Origin: Limonium bicolor
Taxonomy: Eukaryota > Streptophyta > Magnoliopsida > Caryophyllales > Plumbaginaceae
NCBI GenBank assembly: GCA_023374045.1
Contig: CM041783.1
Coordinates: forward strand, 98,429,298-98,493,297
DNA: 64,000 nt
Reading direction: 5' to 3'
This document shows, one piece after another, positions 7,808 through 50,563 of this stretch. The position numbers were made by a program, and so were the translations under genes. How positions within the stretch are numbered: position 1 is the first letter of the stretch; every line of letters begins with the position of its first letter. Below the pieces are notes generated by a model. The model was given only the letters and a program-made list of their open reading frames with translations. It was not told the origin of the DNA and did no database searches.

Positions 7808-8127
7808 TGAAATACCCCGTAATTAAAAATAGTGATTAATTAGACTAATGAATAATTTAGAGGCTTGATTAAGTATAAATAATCATAAGGGAACAAATCC
7901 GAAGAAAACGGATCCTTAAAACGGATTAAAATCACTAACGAACCTTAAAGCGCGTTTTTCGAGGTAACCGGGAAAACGTGTCTTTAAGCGGGTCAAATAG
8001 ACTCGTAACAATTTTGGTCAACTAAATAATCATTAATAAATATTAGTGAAGCTTTAGAACCAATAAAATCAAGAAAACGAGAAATTAGTAAAAACTGTCA
8101 AAAACGGGAAGTTGTGTGGGGTAGAAG

Positions 8128-8135
8128 TATAAATA
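8128..8135 (+). promoter_or_regulatory. Probable LTR TATA box
   Basis: TATAAATA sits about 320 bp into the LTR and is kept at 18649-18656 in the partner LTR. It is followed by a C/T-rich stretch typical of plant core promoters. If it is used, the transcript leader before gag would be more than 3.8 kb unspliced. Confidence 0.5.
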
Positions 8136-8977
8136 ACTAAAACTTATGTGTCCACTTTTAAAATAAAAAGTGAAGTTGTGTGTGTGTGTGTATGCCAGCC
8201 GATGGGCTCCCCCTCTCACTCTCACACACTCTATTTATTCTCTCTTATTTACAAACAAACAAAACTAATAAAGAAAACTAACTTACTTTATTACTTTCCT
8301 CCCTCACTCACAAACTCTCTCTCCTCCCCTCATTCTCTTCTCTCACGCGAATTCCCTCCCTCACTCTCTCTGATTTTCTTCCTCTTCTCCAAACGAGCGA
8401 GCCATGGAAGAATGAGAAAAACAACACAAATATTCACTTCTCTCCTCTTGTAACCTCCCTTAAGCTCTTCCAAAAATTATAAAAATACCACCATTGGAAT
8501 CCTCTCACCAAGAGCTACATTTCCATCTTTCCAAAATTCGAAAACCTACAATTTCGTTTTTATGGGTATGTCCCATTTGGAGCTTCAACACCACCATTAG
8601 AAGGCCCTCCTTCTCCTTGTTCTTTTGAGGTAAAACCTTCTTGAAACTCCTTCGTTTTCTTGTCTTATGAGCAAAACGAATTTAAGCTAAAACCCTTGTT
8701 TGGCCTCCTGTATCCTAGCCGATTTTGGCATCTTGGTGGAGTTGGAATCTTGTTCTTGAGCCACTCCAAACTCTATTTACACCCTTGCAAGGTAATGAGA
8801 ATTCTAAACCCTAAAACCTACTTAAAGCTTAATAATAGTTAGGGTTAGTTATAGTGTATTGAAATGTGTATGTATATGGGTTGTAGAGTAGAGAATTTGT
8901 GGTTACAAAACCGGGGTAGAGAGAGAAGGAAGAAAGAAGCAAGAAGAAGAAGAAAGAAAATCTAGAAGGAAAAATAA

Positions 8978-8979
8978 GG
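8978..8979 (+). other. Candidate leader splice donor (5' LTR)
   Basis: The site reads AATAAG|GTAAGA, close to the plant donor consensus. It is repeated at 19495/19496 in the partner LTR. In the minus-strand family A-like LTRs the same position keeps AAG|GTAA. Together with an acceptor-like CAG directly before the gag ATG (12007), it could remove most of the LTR leader. Confidence 0.4.
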
Positions 8980-9725
8980 TAAGAATGCTTTTTTTTGTGT
9001 AACTTGGTATATATATGTATGTAACAGTTTTTGGTAGTTTGAAATGAGTAATGGAAATGGTAGTAGTGTAATAGTAGTGTAATGTGTAGGAGGATATAAG
9101 TATTTTGAAGCCTTAAAAGACATTTTAAAACCGCCACAATTGAGATGGGAATTACATCTTGAGTGCAGGCAGGAATTTTAAAAGTGTTAGTGTTGTAGAT
9201 TGTGTTGGAGAATTGGTATATTATGCTGTTTAAAAAAGGTGAGAAAGAGTGATGATGATTGGGAACTAGAATATGTGGTGAGAGTGTAAAAATATAGGGG
9301 AGGTTATGTCAAAATTTATATAGGATTAGAACACTTAGTGAATTTTAAACTAGGTGACTAATGTGAGTGTGTAACAGATTTTGTTGAGATAGATAGGGGG
9401 TAAGTTAAGAGAGATAGTTAAGGTAGTTATAGTGCATTGTAAGTTTTAAAAAAATAACATTATAAGAGGGAGCTAAAGATGTAGAAGTGGGAGTTAAAAT
9501 CTGTAGCAAATATAGTAAGGGAGAAAACAATGTGTAAGTGTTGAGTAGAAACTTAGAGAATTGTGTATATAAGTTAGTATAGGATTGTGTAATGAATTAG
9601 GGAATGAATTAGCATGACTTAGGGTGTTTAAACTATACCAAAACATGTTAGGATGTATGTAGGAAGATTGGGGAAGCAATGGGTGAAATTGGGGAAGAAA
9701 AATAAAATCTGTAGCAAGGTTCTGA

Positions 9726-10143
9726 CTTCGTCCGACCCAGACGGTGAGTCGGACGTGGGTCGGACGGGGCTTGAGAAACGAAATCAACCTTTCTGGAATG
9801 GTCCGACCCAGGGCCGTGAGTCGGACGTGGGTCGGACATGGCTTAAACAACGAACCATGAACTTACTGAATGGTCCGACCCAGGACCGTGAGTCGGACAT
9901 GGGTCGGTCGGACATGCAAATTTTACAATGTCGAAGTTTCTGACTTCGTCCGACCCAGAGGTGAGTCGGACGTGGGTCGGACGGAGCTTGGACGACAGGA
10001 CCAAAACTTCTGGAATGGTCCGACCCAGAGAGAGTATGGGTCGGACGGAATAGTGCTGGGTCGGACAGGGTAAATTTCAGAGAACGAACTCTACTGGAAT
10101 GGTCCGACCCAGGGCTTGGGTCGGACGGTGGGTCGGACGGCCT
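9726..10143 (+). repeat. LTR hairpin array, GTCCGACCCA type
   Basis: About six imperfect units of roughly 70-75 bp, each containing GTCCGACCCA and its complement TGGGTCGGAC around a loop; for example 9801-9810 pairs with 9828-9837. Spacers carry CTGGAATGG. The array recurs at 20236-20643. Family A-like LTRs on the minus strand have an array of the same design with a different stem sequence. Confidence 0.8.
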
Positions 10144-10177
10144 ATACTACACAAAAAAAAAAATAGTAAGCTTATAA

Positions 10178-10212
<35 letters not shown>

Positions 10213-10236
10213 TACCCACCTATACATATGTATATA
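10178..10236. repeat. TA microsatellite
   Basis: A run of TA dinucleotides followed by TATGTATATATATA-type sequence. It lies in the LTR just after the hairpin array and is present, but shorter, in the partner LTR near 20680-20735. Confidence 0.85.
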
Positions 10237-10942
10237 TATAGTATGTAAACCATGGACAAGTAATGGAAAGTAAGTAAAATGAAATATAAGTGTAAGGAAT
10301 GTAAGCCTAGTAAGTATGGATTAGTAAACACAAAAGTAGTTGAGTTAAGATTAATAATAGTTAGATTAATCATTCAATTGTATGCATATCATAGGATTTG
10401 ATTTGTGACACCGAAGGACGTTTGGAAACACGTACGACGGTGAACGGTATGGATTCCTCATGCCCCGTATGCTATCTTGGTTACTCTGATTTGTGTGTTG
10501 TGTGCTAATTGATCACCAAATAAGATAAATGCACGAATCGGAGTTAATATGCATACTTGTGAATATGTAGTGTTGTATGTTGTGAATATTCTCTTAAATT
10601 TTAGTTTGTATAATTCATGAAATGTATGGATGAATATGAATGCTTGTATGAATGTTGCAATGTATTGTGACCGATTGTGATGCGTTGGACTTCTAACTTA
10701 TTCCTAACAAGCTAACCATCCTAACTTAAATTGGTAATTAAATTGGAATGAGTAGAAGTCCGATATAGTTTCGGCCACGCGTGAGGATGCGGAGTCACGA
10801 GAGGTTGGCTCCAATTCCTGACTCTTAAACTGGTCCGCGGCCCAAATCCCTTAAGTGGGTAGCATCCCGGATTGGTGAGTCAAGTAAATCCCGGAGGTGG
10901 GACGGCGTAGTCCCCAGGGCCGGAGGTCCCGACGACTTAACT

Positions 10943-11038
10943 TGAGTATAAGTAAGTAAGCAAGAATGAGTAAGTAAAGTAAATGAAAGTAAGTAATTGT
11001 AAGTAAGAAAAAGTAAGTAATGAGTAAAAGAGTAAAAG
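10943..11038. repeat. TAAG-rich simple repeat
   Basis: Degenerate repeats of GTAA and AAGTAAGT lie in the last third of the LTR. The same stretch occurs in the partner LTR (about 21445-21535). In reverse orientation it occurs near 33640-33690, 54440-54520 and 58670-58735. Confidence 0.75.
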
Positions 11039-11415
11039 CATTCCGATTAACCCGGATGCATAATTTGGCTAACCTTGTGAAGGTAAGTAAGATGTGTACT
11101 ATTATATTGTTGCCTTGAATTGTGTAATGAACTGTATTAGCATGTATGTTGTATGCAAAGCATGTATGTATGAAAATAATGAACAGCATGTTAGTGGACG
11201 TCAAATAGTCGGCGTGCCCTAGCTAGCACGCGGTATATGCGGAGTTTATACGCAGCGTTTGCTGAGCCCCTTGGGGCACCATTTTTACTACACGCAGGTA
11301 CTCGAGAGTGATGAAGATGTGAAGACTCAATTTTATTTCTTTATCTTCTTTTTGGATGTAAACATTGAATTATGATGGGTGTACTGAGTAGTACATGGCT
11401 GTTTTTTGATTAGCC

Positions 11416-11435
11416 GGTGTACCATGGGGTACACC
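11416..11435. repeat. LTR-end hairpin
   Basis: A perfect 8-bp stem, GGTGTACC and GGTACACC, around ATGG. It is kept in the partner LTR near 21912 and, in reverse, near 51977. Its role is unknown. Confidence 0.6.
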
Positions 11436-11785
11436 TTTTTGGGATATTGATAGAATGGGAATTGGTATAGATGAGTGGCTAGTGGGAACTCATTATTTTG
11501 GGAAGCTGAATTGGGATGTAAGTATGCACTTTAAATACTCGGTGATCCAAGATTGTAAGCATGTTATGTTTCGGTAATGGTAAGCAATGTTTTAGTAGCT
11601 CGGTATATTATGTTCATCAGACCGTTACTGTAAGTAATAGCCTAGAGCCGTATAGGGCCGTATGGGCGGTTAGCGGCGTTGTATCACCCGCCGTAGTAAG
11701 TAGTAATATTCCGCTGCGAACTCGTAGGATTAACAGGACGATTAGACGGTAAGCATAGGATTAGCGGTTGGGGTGTTACAAAAAG

Positions 11786-11813
11786 TGGTATCAGAGCGTA
11801 GTTACGCTCTGAT
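11786..11813 (+). other. Primer-binding site with acceptor-stem-like hairpin
   Basis: TGGTATCAGAGC at 11786-11797 matches the plant initiator Met tRNA PBS, 5 nt after the LTR. 11790-11800 (ATCAGAGCGTA) is followed after GT by its exact complement TACGCTCTGAT at 11803-11813. This perfect 11-bp hairpin covers most of the PBS. Its second strand resembles the 3' acceptor strand of the primer tRNA. Confidence 0.9.
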
Positions 11814-11857
11814 GTCCATAGTACCGAGCATAGGGGATTACCGAGTTAGGATTCCAA

Positions 11858-11937
11858 CCGTCTTAAGACGGATACTTAGAAACCTAACTAGGAACTACCG
11901 TTATTAATAACGGATACCCTTGACGTTCTTAGGAACG
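11858..11937 (+). other. Gag leader palindromes
   Basis: Three self-complementary elements stand in a row between PBS and gag: CCGTCTTAAGACGG (11858-11871), CCGTTATTAATAACGG (11898-11913) and CGTTC-TTAG-GAACG (11924-11937). A weaker CCTA-AC-TAGG lies at 11883-11892. They are identical in the second interior. By analogy with retroviral leaders they could serve RNA dimerisation or packaging. That is inference. Confidence 0.55.
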
Positions 11938-12006
11938 ATACTTTGCTTAAATTCCAAGACCTTTGAGTCATATCTTGCAAGCCTAATGTAACTGTTAAAT
12001 ATTCAG

Positions 12007-13490
12007 ATGTCAGGAAGAGGTCCAGGTCGCCCTAGAGGAGGGGGCAATGACGGACCCGGCGCGCAGACGATAGCTGAGATCGTCGCCGCCACGGTAGCGC
12101 AGATGCTACCACAAAGTAATCCAAGCTGTGCAACAAACCAACAGAACCAACAAACTCAAGCGGGGCCAATCCCTCCCCCGCCACCCAGGGAAGCGAACTG
12201 GGTAAAAGCTGTAGCGGAACTCCGCCCTCCCTGCTTTAGGGGCGAGAGTGATCCGGCTAAGCTCGAGGCCTACATCTCCGAGATGGAGACGGCTTTCGAA
12301 ACCCTCGAAGCTCCTGCTGGAGTTCGAGAGTCAGAGTAGCAGCCTACTACCTCAAAGATGCTGCAATGGATTGGTGGAAGCTGGTTAAGCACGAGCACGT
12401 CAGTGACCCCACTTTCGACTGGGATTCCTTTGCATCTCTCCTCCGTTCAAAATACTACCCTGAGCATGTAAAGACTAAGAAAAGGCTAGAGCTAGACGCC
12501 TTGAAAATGACAGAAAGATGACTGTCGACGAGTACTACCGCACCCTTCACTTCTACTGCTCCGTTCCTCCCTTAATCTAGGATTACACCGGCAGGTGTTG
12601 GGTCGATCGCTTCTATGGCGGTCTGAGCATCGCCTCGGTACGGTATGAGCTATAGAAGATTTAACTCCATTCAGGTAACTATCAGTGAAACCCTAGTATC
12701 TTCCAAATTTTGGAATTCCGAGAAATTTCCTTGAATCCTTGAATCTTTTCTTATCCTTTTCATAAATAAGAATCCCGGCTAATACCTGAGATTCAGGAGT
12801 GTTATCACGCGGCTTCTCGGTGAAATCACTTGCCAATTAAGGATGAAGAAACCGCGCTGAAGCGCAAAGCTAACAACAAAACACCAGCAATGAGGAGCAG
12901 AACCAGGGGAAGAGATGGAAAAAGAAGAAGGGAATTTCTTTCAACAATCCCAAAAGAAATCCAGGGTGAGGCAGTGCCCATGCTGAGCAGGGCAAACCAG
13001 TGAGCTTCTTCAGCTTGGTTATTCTGCACCGGTGGCAGCAAAGCCACTGAGATCACACCCACCTATGGGTAAATTCCTAATCCAATCTGTATTCGTATAA
13101 GTAATGTATCTAGTATATCCACACACACATGTGTAACCTCTAACCTCAGGTTCTAGCTCCGGTGCCGCCCAAACCTTCGCCGATGGCCGCACCTATGTGT
13201 GCAGAAAGTGCAACCTAGGACCATCCCGGCAAGGACTGCTATGGGAGGGAAATCAAGTGCTATAGCTGCCAAAAACCCGGTCACACGCTAACAAGTTCCC
13301 AGAGAAGGGAGCCAAAGGGGAACTACCAAAGCTACAGACAGAGGGAAGGCAAGGAGGTTGCACCTGGTGATGCACCAGCCCAGCAGGCACCACAGGGACG
13401 GGATCCCGGGGACCTCCGAGGGGTGCACCTCAGAGGAGCCTGTCCTTCACGTGATTGACCGTGATGGGTCCGGTTCTAAGTCCGGCCCAG
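12007..13490 (+). pseudogene. gag: gag of the family A element, first copy (broken, three exons)
   Basis: Gag would form the virus-like particle. The start codon at 12007 directly follows TTCAG and opens MSGRGPGRPRGGG. The exon 1 core (about 12190-12500) carries the retrotransposon gag pattern with a tryptophan pair (DWWKL). Comparison with the better second copy gives exon 1 12007-12674, exon 2 12797-13068 and exon 3 13150-13490, with GT-AG borders. Exon 3 encodes two CCHC-like zinc knuckles (about 13198-13300). This copy has several 1-nt indels in 12300-12680 and elsewhere, so no single frame runs through. The region is much noisier than its partner at 22495, and part of the damage may be assembly error. 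Its last exon ends in CCCAG before GTAATA, the donor for the AlkB or protease exon. Confidence 0.8.
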
Positions 13491-13641
13491 GTAATATCTA
13501 ACCTTTAATCCTGAAGTAGCATGTCTAAGTATTAGAGTAACTGTATGAGTGAATGCATGAGTAAATAAAATGAAGTGTGTATTAGCATAAAATGAAGTAG
13601 TTGAAACTAGTACTCACCGTAGACGAAATTTGTAACCATAG

Positions 13642-14370
13642 GAAGCTTTAGTATCTGTTACCCAATACCGGTAAACTTGAATCAAGAAGAGATCGACATC
13701 ACCAACCCACGACTACACCAACAAACAGTGTCAGGTCATCCGACCAGGTATGATCTTACTAAGGGATACCTGACACCCGAAGCGCAAATCTCAATCATCC
13801 GATGATGCAACGAGCTAGGAACGGGTCAAGGTGGATTTTACACACCCGAATTCCCGGTGGAGCGAAGATGAAGCTGAAGATGATGTGCTTGGGAAAGACT
13901 GGAATCCTTATACCAAGGCATACCAGGAGACACGAACACAAGATGGAGCGACGCCACCGACAATACCGCCAGAGTTTCAGACACTCGTCACACAAGCAGT
14001 AGAATTGCACAACAATGCGAACCTGAACCGATCCTCGCACTTGAAGCGGATCTCTGTATCGTCAACTTCTATGAGAAGGAAGGACTACTTGGGTTACACC
14101 AAGACAAGGACGAGACAGCGGGAATCTCTTGAACAAGGAGTGCCCGTAGTGTCTTGGTCCATTGGTGATGACGCCGTATTCCTGTATAGCGAGCAGAAGC
14201 GTGTGGACCTCGCACAGAAAACTGGTATTGAGATCAGGAGATGTCCTAATCATGGGTGGAAACTCTAGGATGCTGTATCACGGGATCAACAAGATCAAGT
14301 TGAATACGGCACCCGGCAATAATCAATGCCACACACATGAAACCAGGACGCCTGAACCTTACCTTTAGAA
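13642..14370 (+). pseudogene. AlkB-like (ALKBH1-type) exon, first copy, frameshifted
   Basis: This is the homologue of the better copy at 24143-24880. It is recognisable by a PPTIPPEFQTL-like stretch, VPVVSWSIGDDAVFLYS, the GDVLIMGG segment and RLNLTFR near the end, found in different frames. Several 1-nt changes interrupt it: a shift shared with the second copy near 13855, one near 13895, a missing A near 14003 that puts the HxD iron-binding motif out of frame until about 14125, and an extra A near 14219. The end reads TAT AAA rather than the TAT TAA stop of copy two. An AATAAA follows at 14446. As it stands it could not encode an active dioxygenase. Confidence 0.8.
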
Positions 14371-14445
14371 AGTATAAAATTCAAAGTATCATGTAATCTA
14401 TTAGTAACGTGTATTAGAGACACGCTTGTATGATGGTTGGTTATC

Positions 14446-14451
14446 AATAAA
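14446..14451 (+). promoter_or_regulatory. Candidate poly(A) signal after the AlkB exon
   Basis: AATAAA lies about 80 bp after the AlkB end and before the protease acceptor at 14517. It is conserved in the second copy at 24949. It could end a short gag-AlkB transcript, or it may be a remnant of a captured host 3' UTR. Confidence 0.4.
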
Positions 14452-14565
14452 GAGCAGTGTTGATTTAATTCCACTTGTGTCCACCATCAATACTTATCCA
14501 ATTGTGAATCCAATAGGTTGTGGACTCGGTACCGAAGGTAACCTGAGCATCCTCACCGAAGCACA

Positions 14566-14935
14566 AGCCGGCAGGAGCGGCACCATCCTAACGGGAACCT
14601 TCCCAGTAAATGGCATTGATGCCAAGTATTATTCGACTCCGGCGCCTCTCACACTTTCATATCACCATCCTTTGTGAAGAGGTTAAGCTAGATGCGGATG
14701 AGCTACCGAACTTCATGGTTACTCTCCCATCGAAGGAGCGAGTAAAGTGCACCAAGTATTATCAAATCAGCCACAATCCAAATCAAAGGCGAATCGTTTC
14801 CCATTTCCTTCATCGAATTCAATGGATTGGGATTCGACGTAATCATTGGAATGAATTGGTTGGAGCGGCACAAGGGTAGAATCCTCTGCGCCGAGCATCG
14901 TTTGCTGCTCAAGAGTCCTTCTGGGGTTACTGTAT
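14566..14935 (+). pseudogene. Retrotransposon aspartic protease domain
   Basis: The protease matures Gag-Pol. Visible parts are GTFPVNGIDAK, then after a 1-nt shift FDSGASHTFI with the catalytic DSG, and further on GFDVIIGMNWLERHKG, a block that follows the second half of the fold in Ty3/gypsy proteins. At least two frameshifts separate these blocks. The linker to RT contains a decayed stretch (about 14940-15060). Confidence 0.8.
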
Positions 14936-15129
14936 CTTACCGCCAGAGACCGAGAGAGCCTTCGACCACATTATATCTGCTATGGCCATGTACCGGGAGC
15001 TCAGAAAGGGCCAAGGAAGTATATCTGTGTTATGTGCAAAGACCTAGAGAGAGATCCAGAGTTCAATGACGATGTACCCATTGTATCCGAATTCCCTGAT
15101 GTATTCCCTAAGGAGTTACCCGGCATGCC

Positions 15130-15900
15130 ACCACCGAGAGCAGTGGAATTTGAAATTGATCTATGCCAGGTACCGGTCCCATTGCCAGGGCACCGTACCG
15201 CATGGCACCTGCAGAAATGACCGAACTAAAAGAGCAGTTAAGAGACCTTCTAGACAAAGGGTTTATACGCCCGAGCGTATCACCCTGGGGAGCACCGTTC
15301 TCTTTGTGAAGAAGAAGGACGGTAGCCTCCGACTTTGCATTGACTACCGTGAGCTGAATGCGGTTACAGTCAAAAACAAATACCCTGCCACGTATCGACG
15401 ACCTATTCGACCAGTTGAAAGGAGCCTCAGTCTTCTCCAAGATCGACCTCCGCTCGGGTATCATCAGATTGCAATCAAAGAGCAAGACATTGAGAAAACG
15501 GCATTCCGTACCAGATATGGCCACTATGAATTCACAGTGATGCCATTCGGTTTGTCAAACACACCAGCAAAATTCATGGATCTATGAATCGACTATTCAG
15601 CGAGCAGTTAGACACTTCAGTGGTTTCTTCATCGATGACATTATGTATACTCAAAATCACCAGAGAACATGAAACCCACTTGAGGAAAGTGCTTGAGACA
15701 CTGCGCGAGAACCAGCTGTATGCGAAGTTCTCCAAATGCGAGTTTTGGCTTGATCAGGTATCATCTTGGACATGTCATCTTGAGCGCAGGTATCTCGGTT
15801 GACCCTTCTAAGATAAAAGCTGTACGATCATGGCCTAGACCCAAGACTGTTACCGACATTAGGAGCTTTCTTGGTCTAGCCGTTACTACCGGAGATTTGT
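15130..15900 (+). pseudogene. Reverse transcriptase domain
   Basis: Landmarks in order: [20 protein letters not shown] (15307-15366), KIDLRSGYHQI (about 15440-15474), [20 protein letters not shown] (15527-15587), the catalytic FIDDI (15628-15642), then a thumb region with ENQLYAKFSKCEFW and WPRPKTVTDIRSFLGL. These are Ty3/gypsy RT blocks. They fall in all three frames because of small indels, so this copy is inactive as written. Confidence 0.9.
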
Positions 15901-16049
15901 AAGGGACTTCTCAAAAGTCGCTAAGCCCATGACTACATTGATGAAGAAAGATGCACCGTTTGTATGGACACACGAGTGCGATTGTCATTTCAGAAACTTA
16001 AAGACTCATTGACCTCAGCGCCCGTCCTTACTCTTCCAGAGGGCAGAGG

Positions 16050-16400
16050 GATTTGAGGTGTACTGTGATGCATCAGGCAAAGGTATGGGATGCGTACTCA
16101 TGCAACATGGCAAGGTTGTTGCTTATGCCTCCCGCCAGCTGAAAAAGCATGAGGAGAATTACCTGACTCACGACTTAGAGTTAGGGCCATTGTCTTCGCC
16201 CTGAAGATATGACAACACTATCTCTATGGGTAAGCATCACCATCTACTCCGACCATAAGAGCTTACAGTATGTATTCACTCAGAAAGAATTGAACTTGAG
16301 ACAGAGAAGATGGATGGAATTTCTTTCAGATTATGACATCAACTTGCAGTATAAGGAGGGAAGGCAAACATTGTAGCCGACACCCTGAGCCGTCGAGCAC
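16050..16400 (+). pseudogene. RNase H domain
   Basis: [17 protein letters not shown] begins near 16053 and is followed by [40 protein letters not shown] and, after a shift, ADTLSRR. These are the usual acidic and basic landmarks of gypsy RNase H. Frameshifts occur near 16180, 16210-16230 and 16365. Confidence 0.85.
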
Positions 16401-16599
16401 ACTCGCTCCATTCGCTACTCGCTTCTTCTAGCTTGGTTGACGAGGTGCGAGACGCTCAGTTGAGCGACCTTACCTAACCGAAATCAGACACAAGATCGAG
16501 AATGGTACATTTGAGAAGAAAAGTATGACTTCAAGCTACATGAAGACGGTTTGATTCGGTTGAATGGCAGGCTATGCGTCCCCGAAGCAATGCTGAGCT

Positions 16600-17400
16600 A
16601 AGGGATCGCATCCTGCGAGAGTCACATTGTTCCACATTGTCAGTTCATCCGGAGCCTCCAAGATGTACAAAGACATGAAGAGGTACTTCTGGTGGTCTGG
16701 AATGAAATCAGATGTGACGGAATTTGTATTGAGATGCTTAACATGCCAAAAGGTGAAATTTGAACATCGTAGACCGGGCAGAATGGTACAATCGATGCCA
16801 GTTCCGGAGTGGAAATTTCATGATATCTCCATGGATTTTGTTGTAGGACTCCCACCTGCTAGGGGAGGACTCAACATGATCTGGGTTGTAGTAGATCGCC
16901 TTACCAAGGTTGCCAGATTCATACCGATGAAGGACACCTGGAAGGTAGTAAAGCTAGCTGAGCTTTTCGATAAGGAGATTATCAGACACCACGGAGTCCC
17001 TAAGACCATAGTATCTGACCGCGACACCAGATTTCTTTCGAGATACTGGAGAGCTACAAGGGAAGCGTTGGGTACGGAATTGAAGTTGAGTACCGCCTTC
17101 CATCCTCAGACCGACGGTCAGACAGAAAGGACCATCCAGACACTGGAGGACATGCTTCGGGCATGTGCTTGGACTTTCAGGGTAGTTGGTTAGATAAGCT
17201 TCATCTTATCGAGTTCTCGTATAATAATAGTTATCACGCCTCGATTAAGATGTCGCCTTTCCAAGCTCTATACGGTAGACCTTGCCGTACACCCTTGTGT
17301 TGGAATGAGTCAAGTGAAACGGTCATAATAGGACCGGAGTATCTTGAGCAAGTCAAGCTGAAGTGCAACAGATTAGAGCTAACATGAAGGCAGCCCAGGA
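16600..17400 (+). pseudogene. Integrase
   Basis: The zinc-binding HHCC region starts just upstream (SVHPGASKMYKDMKRYFWW, then CLTCQKVK). The catalytic core is open from 16627 to 17193, with D at 16834-16836, D at 17017-17019 (VSDRDTRF) and E at 17125-17127. The last two are separated by 35 residues, the D-D-35-E triad. A frameshift near 17180 separates it from the next block (DKLHLIEFSYNNSYHASI, then PFQALYGRPCRTP). The function would be insertion of element cDNA into chromatin. Confidence 0.9.
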
Positions 17401-17421
17401 TAGACAGAATCCTATGCGGAT

Positions 17422-17871
17422 GTGAGACGACGCGACCTTGAGTTCGCCGTGGGCGACCAAGTGTTCTTGCGAGTTTCACCTATGAAGGGTGTCTTCAGAT
17501 TTGGTCAGAAGGGTAAGCTAAGCCCAAAGTTTGTAGGGTCGTACACTATCACCGAAAGAGTTGGATCTGTAGCCTACAGGTTAGCACTACCTGAGGACTT
17601 GGGGCGTGTCCATGATGTATTTCATGTGTCACAACTCAAGAAGTATATTGCTGATCCTTCTCACGTCTTAGAGCCCGAGAGACTATCCATCGAGCCGACT
17701 ATGCGATATGTTGAAACCCCAGTGAGAATCCTGGATAGGAAGACCAGAGACACTCGCCATAAGTCTATACGAATGGTGAAGGTCCTATGGTCAAACCATG
17801 ATGTCGAAGAAGCGACATGGGAGTTGGAAGATGCCATGAAGGCTAACTACCCACAGCTGTTCATAGACTAG
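17422..17871 (+). CDS. Integrase C-terminal (GPF-type) and chromodomain-like segment of pol
   Basis: An intact 149-codon stretch that in a working element would be the end of Pol, not a separate protein. It contains FAVGDQVFLRVSPMKG, KLSPKFVGSYTI and HDVFHVSQLKKYI, typical of the integrase C-terminus, then VKVLWSNHDVEEATWELEDA near the end. The VEEATWE block is the chromodomain-like signature that chromoviruses use to direct integration to chromatin. The same segment, on the minus strand, is part of each unit of the tandem array at 58021 and 62221. Confidence 0.85.
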   Translation: MRRRDLEFAVGDQVFLRVSPMKGVFRFGQKGKLSPKFVGSYTITERVGSVAYRLALPEDLGRVHDVFHVSQLKKYIADPSHVLEPERLSIEPTMRYVETPVRILDRKTRDTRHKSIRMVKVLWSNHDVEEATWELEDAMKANYPQLFID

Positions 17872-18312: not shown

Positions 18313-18327
18313 TTAAGGGGGGTAGAT
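18313..18327 (+). other. Polypurine tract, family A
   Basis: TTAAGGGGGGTAGAT directly precedes the 3' LTR start TGAAATACCCC. Position and composition are those of the plus-strand primer of LTR retrotransposons. Confidence 0.9.
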
Positions 18328-21300
18328 TGAAATACCCCGTAATTAAAAATAGTGATTAATTAGACTAATGAATAATTTAGAGGCTTGATTAAGTATAAAT
18401 AATCATAAGGGAACAAATCCCGAAGAAAACGGATCCTTAAAACGGATTAAAATCACTAACAAACCTAAAGCACGTTTTTCGAGGTAACCGGGAAAACGTG
18501 TCTTTAGGGGTCAAATAGACTCGACTCGTAACAATTTGGTCAACTAAATAATCATTAATAAATATTAGTGAAGCTTTAGAACCAATAAAAATCAAGAAAA
18601 CGAGAAATTAGTAAAAACTGTCAAAAACAGGAAGTTGTGGGGTAGAAGTATAAATAATAAAACTTATGTGTCCACTTTTAAAATAAAAAGTGAAGTTGCG
18701 TGTGGTGTGTATGCCAGCCGATGGGCTCCCCCTCTCACTCTCACACACTCTATTTATTCTCTCTTATTACAAACAAACAAAACTAATAAAGAAAACTAAC
18801 TTACTTTATTACTTTCCTCCCTCACTCACAAACTCTCTCTCCTCCCCTCATTCTCTTCTCTCACGCGAATTCCCTCCCTCACTCTCTCTGATTTTCTTCC
18901 TTTCTTCTCAAACCGAGCAGCCATGGAAGAATGAGAAAAACAACACAAATATTCACTTCTCTCCTCTTGTAACCTCCCTTAAGCTCTTCCAAAATTATAA
19001 AAAGACCACCATTGGAATCCTCTCACCAAGAGCTACATTTCCATCTTTCCAAAATTCGAAAACCTACAATTTCATTTTTATGGGTATGTCCCATTTGGAG
19101 CTTGAACACCACCATTAGAAGGCCCTCCTTCTCCTTGTTCTTTTGAGGTTAAAACCTTCTTGAAACTCCTTCGTTTTTCTTGTCTTATGAGCAAAACGAA
19201 TTTAAGCTAAAACCCTTGTTTGGCCTCCTGTATCCTAGCCGATTTTGGCATCTTGGTGGAGTTGGAATCTTGTTCTCGAGCCACTCCAAACTCTATTTAC
19301 ACCCTTGCAAGGTAATGAGAATTCTAAACCCTAAAACCTACTTAAAGCTTAATAATAGTTAGGGTTAGTTTATAGTGTATTGAAATGTGTATGTATATGG
19401 GTTGTAGAGTAGAGAATTTGTGGTTACAAAACCGGTAGAGAGAGAAGGAAGAAAGAAGCAAGAAGAAGGAAAGAAAATCTAGAAGGAAAAATAAGGTAAG
19501 AATGCTTTTTTTTGTGTAACTTGGTATATATATGTATGTAACAGTTTTTGGTAGTTTGAAATGAGTAATGGAAATGGTAGTGTAATAGTAGTGTAATGTG
19601 TAGGAGGATATAAGTATTTTGAAGCCTTAAAAGACATTTTAAAACGCCACAATTGAGATGGGAATTACATGTTGAGTGCAGGAATTTAAAAGTGTTAGTG
19701 TGTAGTATTGTGTTGGAGAATTGGTATATTAATGCTGTTTACAAACAGGTGAAATGAGTGATGATTTGGGAACTAGAATATGTGGTGAGAGTGTAAAAAT
19801 ATAGGGGAGGTTATGTCAAAATTTATATAGGATTAGAACACTTAGTGAATTTTAAACTAGGTGACTAATGTGAGTGTGTAACAGATTTTGTTTGAGATAG
19901 ATAGGGGGTAAGTTAAGAGAGATAGTTAAGGAAGTTATAGTGCATTGTAAGTTTTTAAAAATGACATTATAAGAGGGAGCTAAGATGTAGAAGATGGGAG
20001 TTAAAATCTGTAGCATAATATAGTAAGGGGAGAAAAACTGTGTATGTGTTGAGTAGAAACTTAGAGAATTGTGTATATAAGTTAGTATAGGATTGTGTAA
20101 TGAATTAGGGAATGAATTAGCATGACTTAGGGTGTTTAACTATACCAAAACATGTTAGGATGTATGTAGGAAGATTGGGGAAGCAATGGGTGAATTGGGG
20201 AAGAAAAATAAAATTTGTAGCAAGGTTCTGACTTCGTCCGACCCAGACGGTGAGTCGGACGTGGGTCGGATGGGCTTGAGAAACGAAAATCAACCTTTCT
20301 GGAATGGTCCGACCCAGGGCCGTGAGTCGGACGTGGGTCGGACATGGCTTAAACAACGAACCATGAACTTACTGGAATGGTCCGACCCAGGACCGTGAGT
20401 CGGACATGGGTCGGACATGCAAATTTTTACAATGTCGAAGTTTCTGACTTCGTCCGACCCAGACGGTGAGTCGGACGTGGGTCGGACAGAGCTTGGACGA
20501 AGGACCAAAACCTTCTGGAATGGTCCACCCAGAGAGTATGGGTCGGACGGAATAGTGCTGGGTCGGACAGGGAAAATTTCAGAGAACGAACTCTACTGGA
20601 ATGGTCCAACCCAGGGCTTGGGTCGGACGGTGGGTCGGACGGCCCTATACTTACAAAAAAAAAACAGTAAGCTTATAACTAGTATATATATATATATATA
20701 GGTATACCCACCTATACATATGTATATATATAGGTATGTAAACCATGGACAAGTAATGGAAAGTAAGTAAAATGAAATATAAGTGTAAGGAATGTAAAGC
20801 CCTAGTAAGTATGGATTAGTAAACACCAAAGTAGTTGAGTTAAGATTAATAATAGTTAGATTAATCATTCAATTGTATGCATATCATAGGATTTGATTTG
20901 TGACACCGGAAGGACGTTTGGAAACACGTACGACGGTGAACGGTATGGATTCCTCATGCCCCGTATGCTATCTTGGTTACTCTGATTTGTGTGTTGTGTG
21001 CTAATTGATCACCAAATAAGAAATGCACGAATCGGAGTTAATATGCATACTTGTGAATATTTTGTGTTGTATGTTGTGAATATTCTCTTAAATTTTAGTT
21101 TGTATAATTCATGAAATGTATGGATGAATATGAATGCTTGTATGAATGTTGCAATGTATTGTGACCGATTGTGATGCGTTTGGACTTCTAACTTATTCCT
21201 AACAAGCTAACCATCCTAACTTAAATTGGTAATTAAATTGGAATGAGTAGAAGTCCGATATAGTTTCGGCCACGCGTGAGGATGCGGAGTCACGAGAGGT

Positions 21301-22268
21301 TGGCTCCAATTCCTGACTCTTAAACTGGTCCGCGGCCCAAATCCCTTAAGTGGGTAGCATCCCGGATTGGTGAGTCAAGTAAATCCCGGAGGTGGGACGG
21401 CGTAGTCCCCAGGGCCGGAGGTCCCGACGACTTAACTTGAGTATAAGTAAGTAAGCAAGAATGAGTAAGTAAAGTAAATGAAAGTAAGTAATTGTAAGTA
21501 AGAAAAAGTAAGTAATGAGTAAAAGAGTAAAAGCATTCCGATTAACCCGGATGCATAATTTGGCTAACCTTGTGAAGGTAAGTAAGATGTGTACTATTAT
21601 ATTGTTGCCTTGAATTGTGTAACGAACTGTATTAGCATGTATGTTGTATGCAAAGCATGTATGTATGAAAATAATGAACAGCATGTCTAGTGGACGTCAA
21701 ATAGTCGCGTGCCCTAGCTAGCACGCGGTATATGCGGAGTTTATACGCAGCGTTTGCTGAGCCCCTTGGGGCACCATTTTTACTACACGCAGGTACTCGA
21801 GAGTGATGAAGATGTGAAGACTCAATTTTATTTCTTTATCTCTTTTGGATGTAAACATTGAATTATGATGGGTTGTACTGAGTAGTACATGGCTGTAGTT
21901 TTTGATTAGCCGGTGTACCATGGGGTACACCTTTTTGGGATATTGATAGAATGGGAATTGGTATAGATGAGTGGCTAGTGGGAACTCATTATTTTGGGAA
22001 GCTTGAATTGGGATGTAAGTATGCACTTTAAATACTCGGTGATCCAAGAATTGTAAGCATGTTATGTTTCGGTAATGGTAAGCAATGTTTTTAGTAGTCG
22101 GTATATTATGTTCATCAGACCGTTACTGTAAGTAGCATAGCCTAGCTAGCCGTATGGGCGGTTAGCGGCGTTGTATCACCCGCCGTAGTAAGTAGTAATA
22201 TTCCGCTGCGAACTCGTAGGATTAACAGAACGATTAGACGGTAAGCATAGGATTAGCAGTTGGGGTGA
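18328..22268 (+). repeat. Family A 3' LTR, also 5' LTR of the second interior
   Basis: A near-complete copy of 7808-11780 with TATA box at 18649-18656, splice donor at 19495/19496 and hairpin array at 20236-20643. Its end lacks a few bases of the usual GTTACA, and a PBS follows at 22275. It therefore serves as 3' LTR of the left element and as 5' LTR of the interior to its right. Confidence 0.9.
20236..20643 (+). repeat. LTR hairpin array, GTCCGACCCA type (partner LTR)
   Basis: The same array as at 9726-10143, with the same spacers. One unit has TGGTCCACCC and another TGGTCCAACCC, small losses in one arm of the stem. Confidence 0.8.
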
Positions 22269-22274
22269 AAAAAG

Positions 22275-22302
22275 TGGTATCAGAGCGTAGTTACGCTCTG
22301 AT
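22275..22302 (+). other. Primer-binding site and hairpin of the second interior
   Basis: TGGTATCAGAGC is followed by the same perfect 11-bp ATCAGAGCGTA / TACGCTCTGAT hairpin (22279-22302) as in the first copy. Confidence 0.85.
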
Positions 22303-22345
22303 GTCCATAGTACCGAGCATAGGGGATTACCGAGTTAGGATTCAA

Positions 22346-22425
22346 CCGTCTTAAGACGGATACTTAGAAACCTAACTAGGAACTACCGTTATTAATAACG
22401 GATACCCTTGACGTTCTTAGGAACG
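22346..22425 (+). other. Gag leader palindromes of the second interior
   Basis: CCGTCTTAAGACGG (22346-22359), CCGTTATTAATAACGG (22386-22401) and CGTTC-TTAG-GAACG (22412-22425), unchanged from the first copy. Confidence 0.55.
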
Positions 22426-22494
22426 ATACTTTGCTTAAATTCCAAGACCTTTGAGTCATATCTTGCAAGCCTAATGTAACTGTTAAATATTCAG

Positions 22495-23987
22495 ATGTCA
22501 GGAAGAGGTCCAGGTCGCCCTAGAGGAGGGGGCAATGACGGACCCGGCGCGCAGACGATAGCTGAGATCGTCGCCGCCACGGTAGCGCAGATGCTACCAC
22601 AAGTAATCCAAGTTGTGCAACAAACCCAACAGAACCAACAAACTCAAGCGGGGCCAATCCCTCCCCGCCACCCAGGGAAGCGAACTGGGTAAAAGCTGTA
22701 GCGGAACTCCGCCCTCCCTGCTTTAGGGGCGAGAATGATCCGGCTAAGCTCGAGGCCTACATCTCCGAGATGGATACGGCTTTCGAAACCCTCGAAGCTC
22801 CTGCTGGAGTTCGAGTCAGAGTAGCAGCCTACTACCTCAAAGATGCTGCAATGGATTGGTGGAAGCTGGTTAAGCACGAGCACGTCAGTGACCCCACTTT
22901 CGACTGGGATTCCTTTGCATCTCTCCTCCGTTCAAAATACTACCCTGAGCATGTAAAGACTAAGAAAAGGCTAGAGCTAGACGCCTTGAAAATGACAGAA
23001 AAGATGACTGTCGACGAGTACTACCGCACCTTCACTTCTATTCTCCGTCTCCTCCCTAATCTAGGATACACCGGCCAGGTGTTGGTCGATCGCTTCTATG
23101 GCGGTCTGAGCCATCGCCTTCGGTACGGTATGGGCTATACGAGATTTACCTCCCTTCAGGTAAATATCAGTTAACCCTTAGTATCATTCCAAATTCCTTG
23201 AATTCCTTAAATTCCTTGAATCCTTGAATCTTTTCCTTATCCTTTTCTTAAATAAGAATCCCGGCTAATACCTGAGATTTCAGGAGTGTTATCACGCGGC
23301 TTCTCGCGTTGAAATCACTTGCCAATTAAGGGATGAAGAAACCGCGCTGAAGCGCAAAGCTAACAACAAAAACACCAGCACTGAGGAGCAGAACCAGGGG
23401 AAGAGCTGGAAAAAGAAGAAGGGAATTTCTTTCAACAATCCCAAAAGAAATCCCAGGGTGAGGGCAGTGCCCATGCTGAGCAGGGCAAACCAGCTGAGCT
23501 TCTTCAGCTTGGTTATTCTGCACGGTGGCAGCAAAGCCACTGAGATCACACCCACCTAAGGGTAAATTCCTAATCCAATCTGTATTCGTATAAGTAATGT
23601 ATCTAGTATATCCACGCACACATGTGCTAACCCTCTAACCTCAGGTTCTAGCTCCGGTGCCGCCAAAACCTTCGCCGATGGCCGCACCTATGTGTGCAGA
23701 AAGTGCAACCTAGACCATCCCGGCAAGGACTGCTATGGGAGGGAAATCAAGTGCTATAGCTGCCAAAACCCGGTCACACCGCTAACAAGTTCCCAGAGAA
23801 TGGGAAGCCAAAGGGGAACTACCAAAGCTACAGACAGAGGGAAGGCAAGGAGGTTGCACCTGGTGATGCACCAGCCCAGCAGGCACCACAGGGACAGGGA
23901 TCCCGGGACCTCCGAGGGGTGCACCTCAGAGGCAGCCTGTCCTTCACGTGATTGACCGTGATGGGTCCGGTTCTAAGTCCGGCCCAG
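22495..23987 (+). CDS. gag: gag of family A, second copy (three exons, nearly intact)
   Basis: The best gag in the window. Exon 1 is 22495-23159, starting at the ATG right after TTCAG, with a glycine/arginine-rich N-terminus (RGPGRPRGGG) and the gag core (AAYYLKDAAMDWWKL, SKYYPEHVKTKKRLELD, DEYYRTF). A 1-nt gap near 22665 breaks the frame between the N-terminus and the core. Intron 1 is 23160-23283, splicing Q to ECYHAASR. Exon 2 is 23284-23561. Intron 2 is 23562-23644 (phase 1). Exon 3 is 23645-23987, with two zinc knuckles: CRKCNLDHPGKDC, and CYSCQNP plus a damaged second half. Single-base gaps also occur in exons 2 and 3; where the copies differ, the other copy often has the missing base. 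Exon 3 ends CCCAG|GTAATA with one base carried over. The intron positions are inferred from GT-AG borders and frame, not from RNA. Confidence 0.75.
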
Positions 23988-24142
23988 GTAATAATCTCAA
24001 CCTTTAATCCTTGAAGTAGCATGTCTAAGTATTAGAGTAACTGTATGAGTGAATGCATGACTAAATAAAATGAAGTGTGTATTAAGCATAAAATGAAGTA
24101 GTTGAAACTAGTACTCACCGTAGACGAAATTTGTAACCATAG

Positions 24143-24880
24143 GAAGCTTTAGTATCTGTTACCCAATACCGGTAAACTTGAATCAAGAAGAGATCGACAT
24201 CACCAACCACGACTACACCAACAAACAGTGTCAGGTCATCCGACCAGGTATGATCTTACTAAAGGGATACCTGACACCCGAAGCGCAAATCTCAATCATC
24301 CGACGATGCAACGAGCTAGGAACGGGTCAAGGTGGATTTTACACACCCGAATTCCCGGTGGAGCGAAGATGAAGCTGAAGATGATGTGCTTGGAAAGAAG
24401 TGGAATCCTTATACCAAGGCATACCAGGAGACACGAACACAAGATGGAGCGACGCCACCGACAATACCGCCAGAGTTTCAGACACTCGTCACACAAGCAG
24501 TAGAAATTGCACAACAATGCGAACCTGAACCGATCCTCGCACTTGAAGCGGATCTCTGTATCGTCAACTTCTATGAGAAGGAAGGACTACTTGGGTTACA
24601 CCAAGACAAGGACGAGACAGCGGAATCTCTTGAACAAGGAGTGCCCGTAGTGTCTTGGTCCATTGGTGATGACGCCGTATTCCTGTATAGCGAGCAGAAG
24701 CGTGTGGACCTCGCACAGAAACTGGTATTGAGATCAGGAGATGTCCTAATCATGGGTGGAAACTCTAGGATGCTGTATCACGGGATCAACAAGATCAAGT
24801 TGAATACGGCACCGCCGGCAATAATCAATGCCACACACATGAAACCAGGACGCCTGAACCTTACCTTTAGAAAGTATTAA
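24143..24880 (+). CDS. AlkB-like 2OG-Fe(II) dioxygenase exon, ALKBH1 type
   Basis: AlkB proteins oxidatively remove methyl groups from nucleic-acid bases using Fe(II) and 2-oxoglutarate. The acceptor CCATAG at 24142 joins in frame to the gag donor at 23987. The exon opens with SFSICYPIPVNLNQEE, then QVIRPGMILLKGYLTPEAQ. The last 549 bp (24332-24880) are open. Catalytic residues are present: H and D of HQDKDE (His codon at 24599), H of YHGI (24779), and R/R of RLNLTFR (24851 and 24869), matching the AlkB HxD...H and RxNxxxR pattern. The order GGFYTPEF, GAKMKLKMMCL, NPYTKAY resembles plant ALKBH1. Two 1-nt gaps (near 24355 and 24392) still break the N-terminal third, and the first is shared with copy one. 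It ends in TAA, with AATAAA 69 bp on. It sits where Ty3/gypsy elements normally pass from gag to protease. Most likely a captured host gene; activity is unproven. Confidence 0.85.
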
Positions 24881-24948
24881 ATTCAAAGTATCATGTAATC
24901 TATTAGTAACGTGTATTAGAGACACGGCTTGTATGATGGTGGTTTATC

Positions 24949-24954
24949 AATAAA
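24949..24954 (+). promoter_or_regulatory. Candidate poly(A) signal after AlkB, second copy
   Basis: AATAAA lies 69 bp after the AlkB stop and about 40 bp before the point (about 24995) where this copy stops matching the first copy. Confidence 0.45.
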
Positions 24955-24994
24955 GAGCAGTGTTGATTTAATTCCACTTGTGTCCACCATCAAT

Positions 24995-32842: not shown

Positions 32843-35800
32843 TGTAACACACCTACCATTAATACAATGCTTACCGTCCAATCTCCTTACACATCAGATA
32901 CACACAGCGGATACATACTTGCATACAATGGGTGATACAATGCCGTTAGCCACCCACGTGACTAACAAGGCTACTGCTTCTACATACAGCATCGGTCTGA
33001 TGGACCGGAATCCCGAGTACTACAATTCTACAACACATACTCCATTCATCAAACGAATACTACAATGTTCCATTCAATACTTTACTCCTTCGTAAACCTT
33101 ACAATACAAAATACATAACCGAGTCTACTAGGATCCTTATACAATTATATTATCTCTTCCAAGTTCATACATACTCACTAAGAGCCTACATCTACCCATT
33201 CCTCGCAACTACTTACTTTCTAAGTACAAGAGTGTGCCGCCGGTCTCTTACCATGACCACATTCGCTTCGGGTACCGGCACACTAAAAACGTTCCCCCTA
33301 GGGGGTCAGCTTTCGCTGCACATGATAACCGCATACCCACGTACTAGTGGGTACGCCGACCATTTGGTCGAAACATGCAGTTCATTTTCATACAAACATA
33401 CATGCATACATGCTCTTATACACAATACAATAATACTTACGCAAGCATACATACATACACTTCATTACATACAGGGATACAATATAACCATCCAATACAT
33501 ACTTACCTTCTTCCGAATACACATATTCATTACATACACAAGTACAATTCTTGTTAGCTTCATTGGTCCACCCGGGTTAATCGGGTGGATATTACTCTTT
33601 TACTCGTTACTTCATACATACACATACATACTCATACTCATACATACTTACGGATCCATACTTACTTACTCTTACTCTTACTCAAGTTAAGTCGTCGGGA
33701 CCTCTGGCCCTGGGGACTACTCCGTCCCACCTCCGGGATTTACTTGACTCACCAATCCGGGATGCTACCCATTTAAGGGATTTGGGCCGCGGACCAGTTT
33801 AAGAGTCAGGAATTGCAGCCAACCTCTTGTGACTCCGCATCCTTACGCGTGGCCGAAGCTATATCGGACTTCTACTCATTCCGGTATACTCACTTAAGTT
33901 AGGAGTTAGGTAGTTAGGAATTAGCAGAAGTCATTCATACAAGCCACGTACATAATTACTATGCTCAATACCCATTTATACAAAATACAATACAATACTT
34001 AAGTACAATACAAGATTCGAATACAAGTCATCCTCATTCATACATTTCATGAATTATACAAACTAGTGCTCAAGACAATAAATATACAGAACAACATAAG
34101 TCAAGCACAGGTAAGTGCAATATAGTCCGATTCATGCATTTATCTTATTTAGGTGGTCAAATAAGCACACAAATCGGGGTAACCAGATTAGGATACAGGG
34201 CATGAAGAAATCATACCTTTCACCGTTGTACTTGTATCCCAACGTTCCTCCGGTGTTCACAAATCATATCCTATTATATATACATATAGTTGAATGATTA
34301 ATCTATCTATCATTAACTTAACCCGATTACTCTTACGCTTCCTAACTCATACTTACTAAGTCTTCACATTCCTATACTTACATTTTATTTACTTACTTTT
34401 CATTGCTTAACAATGGTGTACTTACATATGTGCACGTATATATAGGTGGGTATACATATACATACATACATATACTAACCATAGTCTTATAGTTTTTTTG
34501 TAAGTTTTGACCCGACCGACCGAACTTGTGACCGATCTTGCAAGTTCGGTCCAAGTCAGTAGGCTACATCGGGTGAAAATTCCAGGGCCGACCGACCTTG
34601 TAAGTCCGGTCCCAAGGTCGGTCCATTCCAGTGAGTTACTTAACAAAAAATTTTAGCCCGACCGACCTTGCAAGTCCGGTCGCAAGGTCGGTCCATTCCA
34701 GTAGCTTACAAGACGGAAAATTTTAGCCCGACCGACCTTGCAAGTCCGGTCGCAAGGTCGGTCCATTCCAGTAGCTTACAAGACGGAAATTTTTCTGGCC
34801 GACCGAACTTGCAAGTCCGGTCGCAAGTTCGGTCCATTCCAGAAGGTTACTGACGGGAGAATTTTTCTGGTCCGACCGAACTTGCAAGTCCGGTCGCAAG
34901 TTCGGTCCATTCCAGAATCATTCCCGTCTTTGTAAATCTGGGCTCGACCGAACTTGCAAGTCCGGTCGCAAGTTCGGTCCGGCCCAGTATTTGCATTTTT
35001 ATTTCTGTTTTCAGTTCTATACTTTACCCATTGTTTCTCCAATCTTCTTACATGTAATCCCACATGTTTAAACACTACCTAGGCCCTTCAAATTGCCTTA
35101 GTTCATCCACCAAATTCTTACTAAATCCATCAATCAACTTACACAATTTCATCACTTCCCTTCCACACTTACAACAGTTTTGCATCCTTCAATGCTACAG
35201 ATTTTTGTTCCAACTTCCAACCTCCAATACTTCCTCTACCAATGTCACTCCTAGCATCCCAAAAACCCTCCTCTTACCAAGCCAATTCATTTCTAAGCAA
35301 TTGTACCATCTATACCCAAGTCCAACATTCATTTACCAAATCTTGCACACTATTTCTTCTTAGTTCCACAATGCAATCTAATACCTCTTTGCTACAACAG
35401 ATTTTGACACTTACTCTCCCCTATATTTTATACACTCTCACCACAAGGTTTCCTCACACATTAACATAAACTCTCACCGTTTATACACAACATCAATATA
35501 CAGCTCCCATACACAATTACCAATTACTAAACACTACTAAAAAATTCCTGCACTCAACAACCCAATACCCAACTAAGTTTCAATACATTTTACATGTCTT
35601 TCAACGGTTTTAAACACTTAGATTCTCCTACACAATATATTTCTACACAATACCATCTTCATTACTCATTTCAAACTTCTACAAATCTGTACATCCATAT
35701 ATATACAAGGCTACACAAAGGTGAGTATCCTTACCTTGTTTCTCCTAATTTCTTTTCTTCTTCTTGCTTCTACTTTTCCTCTTCCACTTCCCACCGGTTT

Positions 35801-49184: not shown

Positions 49185-49249
49185 AATTCAATATCTATTG
49201 GTTGTGTACGGTAAATTACCGAGTATTTATGTGACATACTGTACTACAG

Positions 49250-50563
49250 ATGTCTGGGGGAACTAGATGGCGTGGTACTGGTAGAGGTGGAGGCGGTGAC
49301 CCCGCGAATCCAGGAGTTGCTGAGACGATTGCTGCCGTTCTCGCACAGCTTGGTACTCAGATAGGAGGAGCACCAGCCCACCGCCACACACCCAGGGAAA
49401 CGAACTGGCTGAAGTCAGTTAGCGAGACCAGACCACCTACATATTCAGGGGAGCCAGACCCCGTAGCCTTGGAGCGATTCATAGTTGAACATGCGAAGGC
49501 CTATGAGGCTTTACAAGTACCTGCCAACCAGAAGGTCGTCATTGCTGCTTTCCATCTGAAGGATGCAGCCAGCACTTGGTGGAGGTTGGTCAAGGACCAT
49601 CACCTGACTACGCCCGACTTTTCGTGGGCTGCCTTTGTCGAGTTGCTGAGGGGGAAGTACTACCCAGCTCATCTTAAGCAGAAGAAGCGCCATGAGTTCG
49701 AGACATTATCCCAGGGAGGTCTGACAGTGGATGAGTATTACGCTCGATTCATTGGTCTGCTGGACTTTATCCCCGTTGTTGATTACTTAGAGACCGTGAA
49801 GGTCTAGAAGTTCCGGGGGGGATTGTTGTTTCGCATCCAGATGGCGATGGGTGCTACCCTCTATACTACCATCCAGGTATTAACATGAAAGCCATAAATT
49901 CTTTACTTACTACATTACCGATTAACCTTGTGAGAACTACCAATGAGATTCCAGGAGTGTTATGACGCTGCCTCGAGGACAGAGCTGATGCTTCAGACTC
50001 GGGCAGAGACTCTCGGGGCCAAGAAGAGAAAGAACCTGAGGGAGAGTCTGAGAGTGGGAGCATCTCCAGGCGATAGCCAGCGAAGAAGAAGGAAAGTAAG
50101 GACTTATCCCATTCTAAACTAATTACCATATTATATACCTTATGAATGCTGACCCAAAACCTTGAACAGGAAATTCTTTCAAAAGAAAGGGCAGCAGGGT
50201 CACCAGGGAGCGAAGGGGAAAGAGCCCGTCCTTCAGTTGACCGGCCCAACTATAGATGCTCAGCCTTTGAGATCTGCACCTCCTAAGGGCATCGAACAGC
50301 CCCAGCGCCATTTCTATTGTAAGCATTGTGGGAGGACCATCCTGGGGTTGACTGCAATGGCCGCAAAGTTGAGTGTCGATGTTGCAAGAAAGAGGGCCAC
50401 CGGGAGTTCGAGTGCTGGATGAACCCAGAGAGCCGTAATTACAGGCCACCAAGGAATACTCAGAAGACCTCAGTTGGAGGATCTGGAGTACCACGAGGCG
50501 GTCAGGATGACCAGACATCTACTGATGCTGGAGCCCAGAAAGGGAAAGGAGTCATTAGGGCAT
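49250..50563 (+). pseudogene. gag: gag of family B (broken, three exons)
   Basis: The ATG at 49250 follows CTACAG, the same acceptor-like context as family A. Exon 1 is 49250-49876, with a glycine-rich start and a gag core (AAFHLKDAASTWWRLV, LRGKYYPAHLKQKKRHEFE). Intron 1 is 49877-49954, at the same residue as in family A (Q|ECYDAASR). Exon 2 is 49955-50095 and intron 2 is 50096-50169, which family A lacks. Exon 3 begins at 50170 with KFFQKKGQQGHQG, then the zinc knuckles CKHC...HPGVDC and CRCCKKEGHREFEC. Defects are an in-frame TAG at 49805-49807, a shift in exon 2 and a shift inside the first zinc knuckle. The last frame stops at about 50563 and no pol follows. Confidence 0.8.

Follow-up and report, generated by a model that had tools for sequence, protein, structure and literature searches.

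An OsALKBH1-type AlkB domain in a chromovirus-like Ty3/gypsy retrotransposon, probably carried as additional coding sequence between gag and protease

The window, that is, the whole 64-kb stretch of DNA that was analysed, contains a Ty3/gypsy retrotransposon in which a domain of the AlkB dioxygenase family follows gag and, in one of two copies, precedes the protease. The domain is very probably part of the element. We favour, with moderate confidence, the explanation that a chromovirus-type Ty3/gypsy element captured a host OsALKBH1-type AlkB, carries it as an extra coding segment and may employ it on the element's own nucleic acid.

Using sequence reading and Pfam matches across the 64-kb window, we recovered the Ty3/gypsy order of LTR, primer site and gag, then protease, reverse transcriptase and integrase (Table 1), in agreement with the first-pass annotation of this DNA, which had assigned the AlkB segment to such an element. 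The LTRs are about 4 kb long, and the element measures about 14.5 kb from LTR to LTR. Pfam scores above the cut-off were obtained for gag (PF03732), the protease (PF08284, at 14746-15066, next after AlkB in copy 1), the reverse transcriptase (PF00078), the integrase zinc domain (PF17921) and SH3_Tf2-1 (PF24626, 88.9 bits). The integrase core (PF00665; 28.5 bits versus a cut-off of 32.6) and the chromodomain (PF00385; 23.4 bits versus 25.1) scored below, the latter though it lies in the expected place. A G-rich tract separates the chromodomain-like end (17868) from the second LTR (18328). Scans of the window for tRNAs and Rfam families gave no match. The LTR ends and the chromodomain presumably resemble those of the Tekay/Del clade, and we take the primer site TGGTATCAGAGC to be of the tRNA-Met type. 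A chromodomain after the integrase and, in most members, a tRNA-Met primer are the criteria for plant chromoviruses in the excerpted text of PMC6317226.

Table 1. Features of the AlkB-bearing locus, in window coordinates.
Feature	Position	Strand	Basis
LTR1	7808..11780	+	repeat with 18328 onward; TG...CA ends TGAAATACCCC ... GGGGTGTTACA
Primer binding site TGGTATCAGAGC	11786..11797	+	sequence reading
gag of copy 1, containing zinc knuckles; frame broken at several points	12007..13490	+	sequence; the same region of copy 2 matches PF03732
AT-rich spacer 1, copy 1	13491..13641	+	donor-like CAG/GTAATA to acceptor-like CCATAG; stops in every frame
AlkB, copy 1, frame-broken, without terminal stop codon	13642..14375	+	
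AT-rich spacer 2 of copy 1; acceptor-like CCAATAG at its end	14376..14516	+	
Protease, reverse transcriptase, integrase, SH3-like domain, chromodomain; frame-broken	14517..17868	+	Pfam
LTR2, common to both internal copies; 3' end approximate	18328..22268	+	repeat, sequence
Second primer binding site	22275..22286	+	sequence
gag, copy 2, frame-broken	22495..23987	+	PF03732, 59.4 bits on 22566-23171
AT-rich spacer 1, copy 2	23988..24142	+	
AlkB, copy 2; open 24320-24877; frame breaks ~24354-24401	24143..24880	+	PF13532, E=4e-36
First part of spacer 2 in copy 2, up to the end of similarity with copy 1 at 24994	24881..24994	+	

Self-comparison of the window revealed a 6.7-kb repeat (7807-14491 versus 18327-24994, 96.5% identity). 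As had been claimed, AlkB occupies the same place in both internal copies, from 13642 and from 24143, after the gag zinc knuckles (CRKCNLDHPGKDC, CYSCQ). The accompanying claim of a position between gag and protease holds for copy 1, which alone is followed by protease and pol, whereas copy 2 has gag and then ceases to match at 24994. Since the copies are tandem neighbours with a common middle LTR, they need not be independent insertions, and as near-identical neighbours they say little on repeated mobilisation; within the 64-kb window, the AlkB-bearing element was seen at this one tandem locus only. Around the AlkB segment, no convincing direct repeats of the insertion-scar kind were found.

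Other repeats occur in the window. On the minus strand, 53975-64000 consists of head-to-tail units of about 4.2 kb that are 97.8% identical, each an LTR like that of the AlkB element with a tail of chromodomain region; the array has no internal genes. Tandem repeats of 70-73 bases lie in LTRs or LTR-like stretches at 9730-9911, 20236-20419, 34588-34980, 55313-55636, 59523-59841 and 63728-63990. The gag of a different Ty3/gypsy element, with a PF03732 match and zinc-knuckle-like stretches, is located at 49235-50562, where four AlkB queries gave no match.

The AlkB segment of copy 2 matched PF13532 at 24332-24880 (residues 11-180) with 125.5 bits and E=4e-36, and chance is therefore no issue. 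The codons of the HxD motif lie at 24599 and 24605 and that of the later H at 24779, with N and Y codons at 24566 and 24572 and those of RxNxxxR at 24851, 24857 and 24869. The set of iron and 2-oxoglutarate residues is thus complete, and every residue of the triad and the arginine-asparagine motif that had been read into 24143..24880 could be located. A structure was predicted for 24386-24877 (164 residues, 48-row alignment, mean pLDDT 93.4), and the fold search with it gave 1282 matches at E<=10. The best was OsALKBH1 (5xoi; E=1.9e-17, TM 0.91, 48% identity), followed within the best 50 of the 1282 by E. coli AlkB (TM about 0.7) and then human ALKBH1; ALKBH5 was not among these 50. Searching the sequences of PDB chains reproduced this order with OsALKBH1 nearest, and ALKBH5 was absent from the 21 matches. 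Judged by sequence and predicted structure, the domain is an OsALKBH1/AlkB-type dioxygenase, its modelled fold bearing HxD...H and RxNxxxR.

In the protein database, 588 proteins matched the AlkB segment, and among the best 120 the named ones were almost all from plants. The closest five within the same 120, P0001-P0005, are unnamed proteins from ENA or lgn contigs with 61-69% identity; P0001-P0004 have all the iron and 2-oxoglutarate residues, and so does P0005 over the part that its sequence covers. Of the 57 matches of 536-1704 aa listed from 1203 candidates, none combined AlkB with a retroelement Pfam domain. P0121, from Smallanthus sonchifolius, is a predicted protein of 786 aa that contains AlkB in four stretches; tandem genes may have been fused in the gene model.

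The first-pass annotation had described the segment as an open frame. A long open stretch is indeed present in copy 2 only (24320-24877), but as sequenced both copies are frame-broken: in copy 2 the first ~70 residues lie in another frame and ~24354-24401 in a third, such that P0001 matches in three frames, and copy 1 displays the same breaks, two being common to both, along with six further small indels relative to copy 2. Over the 6.7-kb repeat as a whole we counted 93 indel events, of which 83 involve 1-2 bases, and 133 substitutions (summed over regions), many of them clumped. Dense 1-2-base indels look typical of an unpolished long-read assembly and suggest that many of the breaks are assembly errors. 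Because the indel pattern reads in this way, the breaks are as compatible with a functional gene as with a defunct one. Between the copies, AlkB differs by substitution at 5 of 746 aligned bases (0.7%), four of them within seven bases (13893-13899), compared with 44 of 1449 (3.0%) in gag (p=0.0002 versus AlkB) and 77 of 3906 (2.0%) in the LTR (p=0.01). Clumped assembly errors may account for the lower divergence of AlkB. As there were five AlkB substitutions, four of them clustered, a copy-to-copy dN/dS was dropped.

In a tree of 54 rows, the window AlkB grouped with P0001-P0005 in one clade (98/85), and the named plant genes sampled all fell outside it. Joining this clade to the angiosperms was not rejected (p-AU 0.442), and its position outside them is not firm. 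Together with the PF13532 match and OsALKBH1 as nearest structure, the tree upholds the proposed kinship with plant ALKBH1-like proteins; of the comparison with host genes called for in the first pass, the separate clade stands, and the place outside the angiosperms does not stand firmly. In P0053 and P0096, two other unnamed proteins, LGLH or LGMH is immediately followed by an insertion with QV at its start and Q at its end, probably a retained intron. The window AlkB and P0001-P0005 read through the site after LGLH without insertion, which fits capture through RNA and suggests that P0001-P0005 may be mobile copies as well. A gag search for a link between P0001-P0005 and retroelements yielded 292 candidates, 0 of them at E<=0.001, and viral contigs were scanned with AlkB by itself (8 pattern matches), with an alignment of AlkB sequences (126) and with integrase (1), none of which gave a confirmed relative.

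The window's own changes, taken relative to P0001-P0005 at columns with at least 75% agreement among these relatives, fell on 2 of 57 host-conserved columns versus 11 of 49 others (p=0.006). Host-conserved columns were those with agreement in at least 90% of 37 host rows, some of them unnamed; the rows of a multicopy protein from grasses and four rows presumed to be bacterial were excluded. As the changes avoid host-conserved columns, the data support an AlkB lineage that evolved under constraint, in host or in element. This constraint may have acted while the sequence was still a host gene, prior to its capture.

These results bear on two rival explanations. The segment could be a passenger, a processed host AlkB transcript acquired by template switching and subsequently multiplied by tandem duplication or recombination, with no role for the element. 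Such an origin would suit the occurrence of just two near-identical neighbouring copies, the frame breaks, two of which both copies have, and the lack of an intron inside AlkB; it sits poorly with relatives that are at nearest 61-69% identical (best 120 of 588) and a separate clade with no recent twin of a named host gene, with changes that avoid host-conserved columns, and with small indels that suggest errors of assembly as the source of the breaks. We consider it unlikely, while still giving it real weight. The other rival takes the clade of the window AlkB and P0001-P0005 for a normal gene of some plant group missing from the sample, recently captured by this one element, the constraint being that of the host gene. 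Unsampled groups do exist and the clade falls outside the sampled named genes; however, P0001-P0005 are unnamed and unbroken across the probable intron site, and since an angiosperm placement is not rejected, no exotic host is needed. This rival appears improbable to us.

A multicopy AlkB protein of grasses was also observed among the best 120 of the 588 matches. P0070 stands for 42 sequences named Paspalum notatum, and with its relatives P0050, P0054, P0059, P0061, P0062, P0066, P0068, P0074, P0076, P0079, P0082 and P0089 (13 rows in total, several unnamed) it forms one clade (100/99) nested in the grasses (97/95) and apart from the window clade. This family may be another mobile AlkB.

The spacers on either side of AlkB have an AT content of 0.66-0.69, compared with 0.49-0.53 in the coding parts, and both contain stops in every frame. 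Outer change-points in AT content were placed at 13492 in copy 1, 23989 in copy 2 and, more weakly, 14516 (log-likelihood gain 3.9), each at most 1 base from a donor-like CAG/GTAATA (13490/13491 and 23987/23988) or an acceptor-like CCAATAG/GT (14516/14517); the inner change-points (13694, 14359 and 24195) coincide with no candidate splice site. CAGGTAA recurs at three further positions, two of them within gag (12672, 23157) and the third at 34108. From the gag frame that ends in ...GSGSKSGP at the donor, phase is kept by the acceptor CCATAG before AlkB and likewise by the acceptor before the protease. Phase-keeping AGs make up 3 of 12 and 2 of 6 in the stretches listed, and with the gag frame uncertain, phase alone is weak. 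These features suggest that AlkB may belong to a spliced cassette with Gag, Gag-AlkB and Gag-Pol as its possible products: unspliced RNA would end Gag shortly after the donor, use of one acceptor would fuse AlkB to Gag and carry the enzyme into the particle, and use of the next would yield Gag-Pol. A model for the spacers is provided by Ogre elements, in which, according to the excerpted text of PMC6317226, a short region between polyprotein parts is spliced in a subset of transcripts. The likeness lies in a short, partly spliced non-coding stretch between polyprotein parts; in contrast, the Ogre intron follows the protease, with no AlkB described in it in that excerpt, and splicing here is our inference.

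According to the explanation that we favour, a plant chromovirus-type Ty3/gypsy element would have taken up a host AlkB gene of the OsALKBH1 type, in a copy free of introns, and kept it as additional coding sequence between gag and protease. Made either as a Gag-AlkB product by way of the intron-like spacer or from a separate ORF, AlkB would thereby be placed where element RNA and cDNA are copied. There it could act on single-stranded RNA or cDNA of the element and oxidatively demethylate the bases; the methyl groups removed would be either marks of host origin that are unfavourable to the element or chemical lesions that stop reverse transcriptase. We lean towards a function of AlkB for the element, a reading that is helped by the in vitro activity on RNA of the AlkB of an orchid Ty3/gypsy element (PMC9289625). 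That it acts on the element's own RNA or cDNA is plausible but somewhat short of probable.

A bolder proposal, which we regard as tentative and rather unlikely as a whole, is that of a long-lived chromovirus lineage with an OsALKBH1-type AlkB as a spliced cassette, and of convergent demethylase capture in plant retrotransposons. If true, the convergent captures would comprise an ALKBH5-type enzyme in orchid Ogre elements, an ALKBH1-type enzyme here and, in grasses, possibly a third. Taken alone, the AlkB of one orchid family might pass for an oddity. Were an enzyme captured a second time, by another element lineage, from another AlkB subfamily and into another position, this would point to methylated bases in element RNA or cDNA, whether host marks or damage, as a barrier that retrotransposons have evolved again and again to clear. 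From its place between gag and protease, the enzyme is predicted to be packaged with element RNA, candidate substrates being m6A in RNA, 6mA in cDNA, or m1A/m3C lesions.

Among known systems, OsALKBH1 (PDB 5xoi, 5xeg) and the plant ALKBH1C/1D-like proteins share the fold (TM 0.91, 48% identity) and the cofactor residues of the window AlkB, but they are host genes, whereas the segment described here lies in a retrotransposon and is without an intron at the LGLH/Q site. Rice ALKBH1, possibly not the locus of the PDB entry, is reported in the excerpted text of PMC10469495 to remove 6mA from ssDNA in vitro. AlkB domains are also carried by plant RNA viruses (Alphaflexiviridae, Betaflexiviridae and Closteroviridae, as named in the part of PMC9289625 on viruses). 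By description only, these resemble our case as replicating elements with an AlkB of their own and differ in being RNA viruses.

The first-pass annotation had known of no AlkB as a standard component of plant LTR elements, yet an orchid Ty3/gypsy precedent was published in 2022: Alvarado-Marchena et al. screened 121 angiosperm genomes, found the 2-ODD/AlkB domain in two Phalaenopsis genomes only, and showed the ALKBH5-type ORF2 of the Ogre/Tat elements to be an m6A demethylase in vitro (PMC9289625). The case is cited in a 2025 review (excerpt of PMC12786077). AlkB in a plant retrotransposon is therefore an already known kind of finding, and the ALKBH1 type and the gag-protease position appear to be new; no chromovirus or ALKBH1-type case in LTR/gypsy elements was among the matches listed from the open-licence PMC literature. 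Gypsy_Pa_2799 and its kin, with a paALKBH5-like ORF2, are likewise plant Ty3/gypsy elements with large LTRs and an AlkB with complete cofactor residues (PMC9289625), and on these grounds one might assign the element described here to that family. Such membership is contradicted by domain type, position and element anatomy, and we consider it very improbable. In the orchid elements gag and pol share a single ORF and the ALKBH5-type enzyme is encoded separately, in ORF2, whereas the enzyme here is OsALKBH1-type, with no ALKBH5 among the matches listed, and lies between gag and protease. The orchid elements, at ~25.5 kb, are Tat/Ogre with a dual RNase H, whereas the present element, at ~14.5 kb, is chromovirus-like with SH3-like domain and chromodomain at the integrase end. 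The orchid primer site matches tRNA-Arg, in contrast to the site here, which we take to be tRNA-Met-type. As element lineage, enzyme subfamily and position all differ, we read the present case as an independent capture, highly probably separate from that in the orchids.
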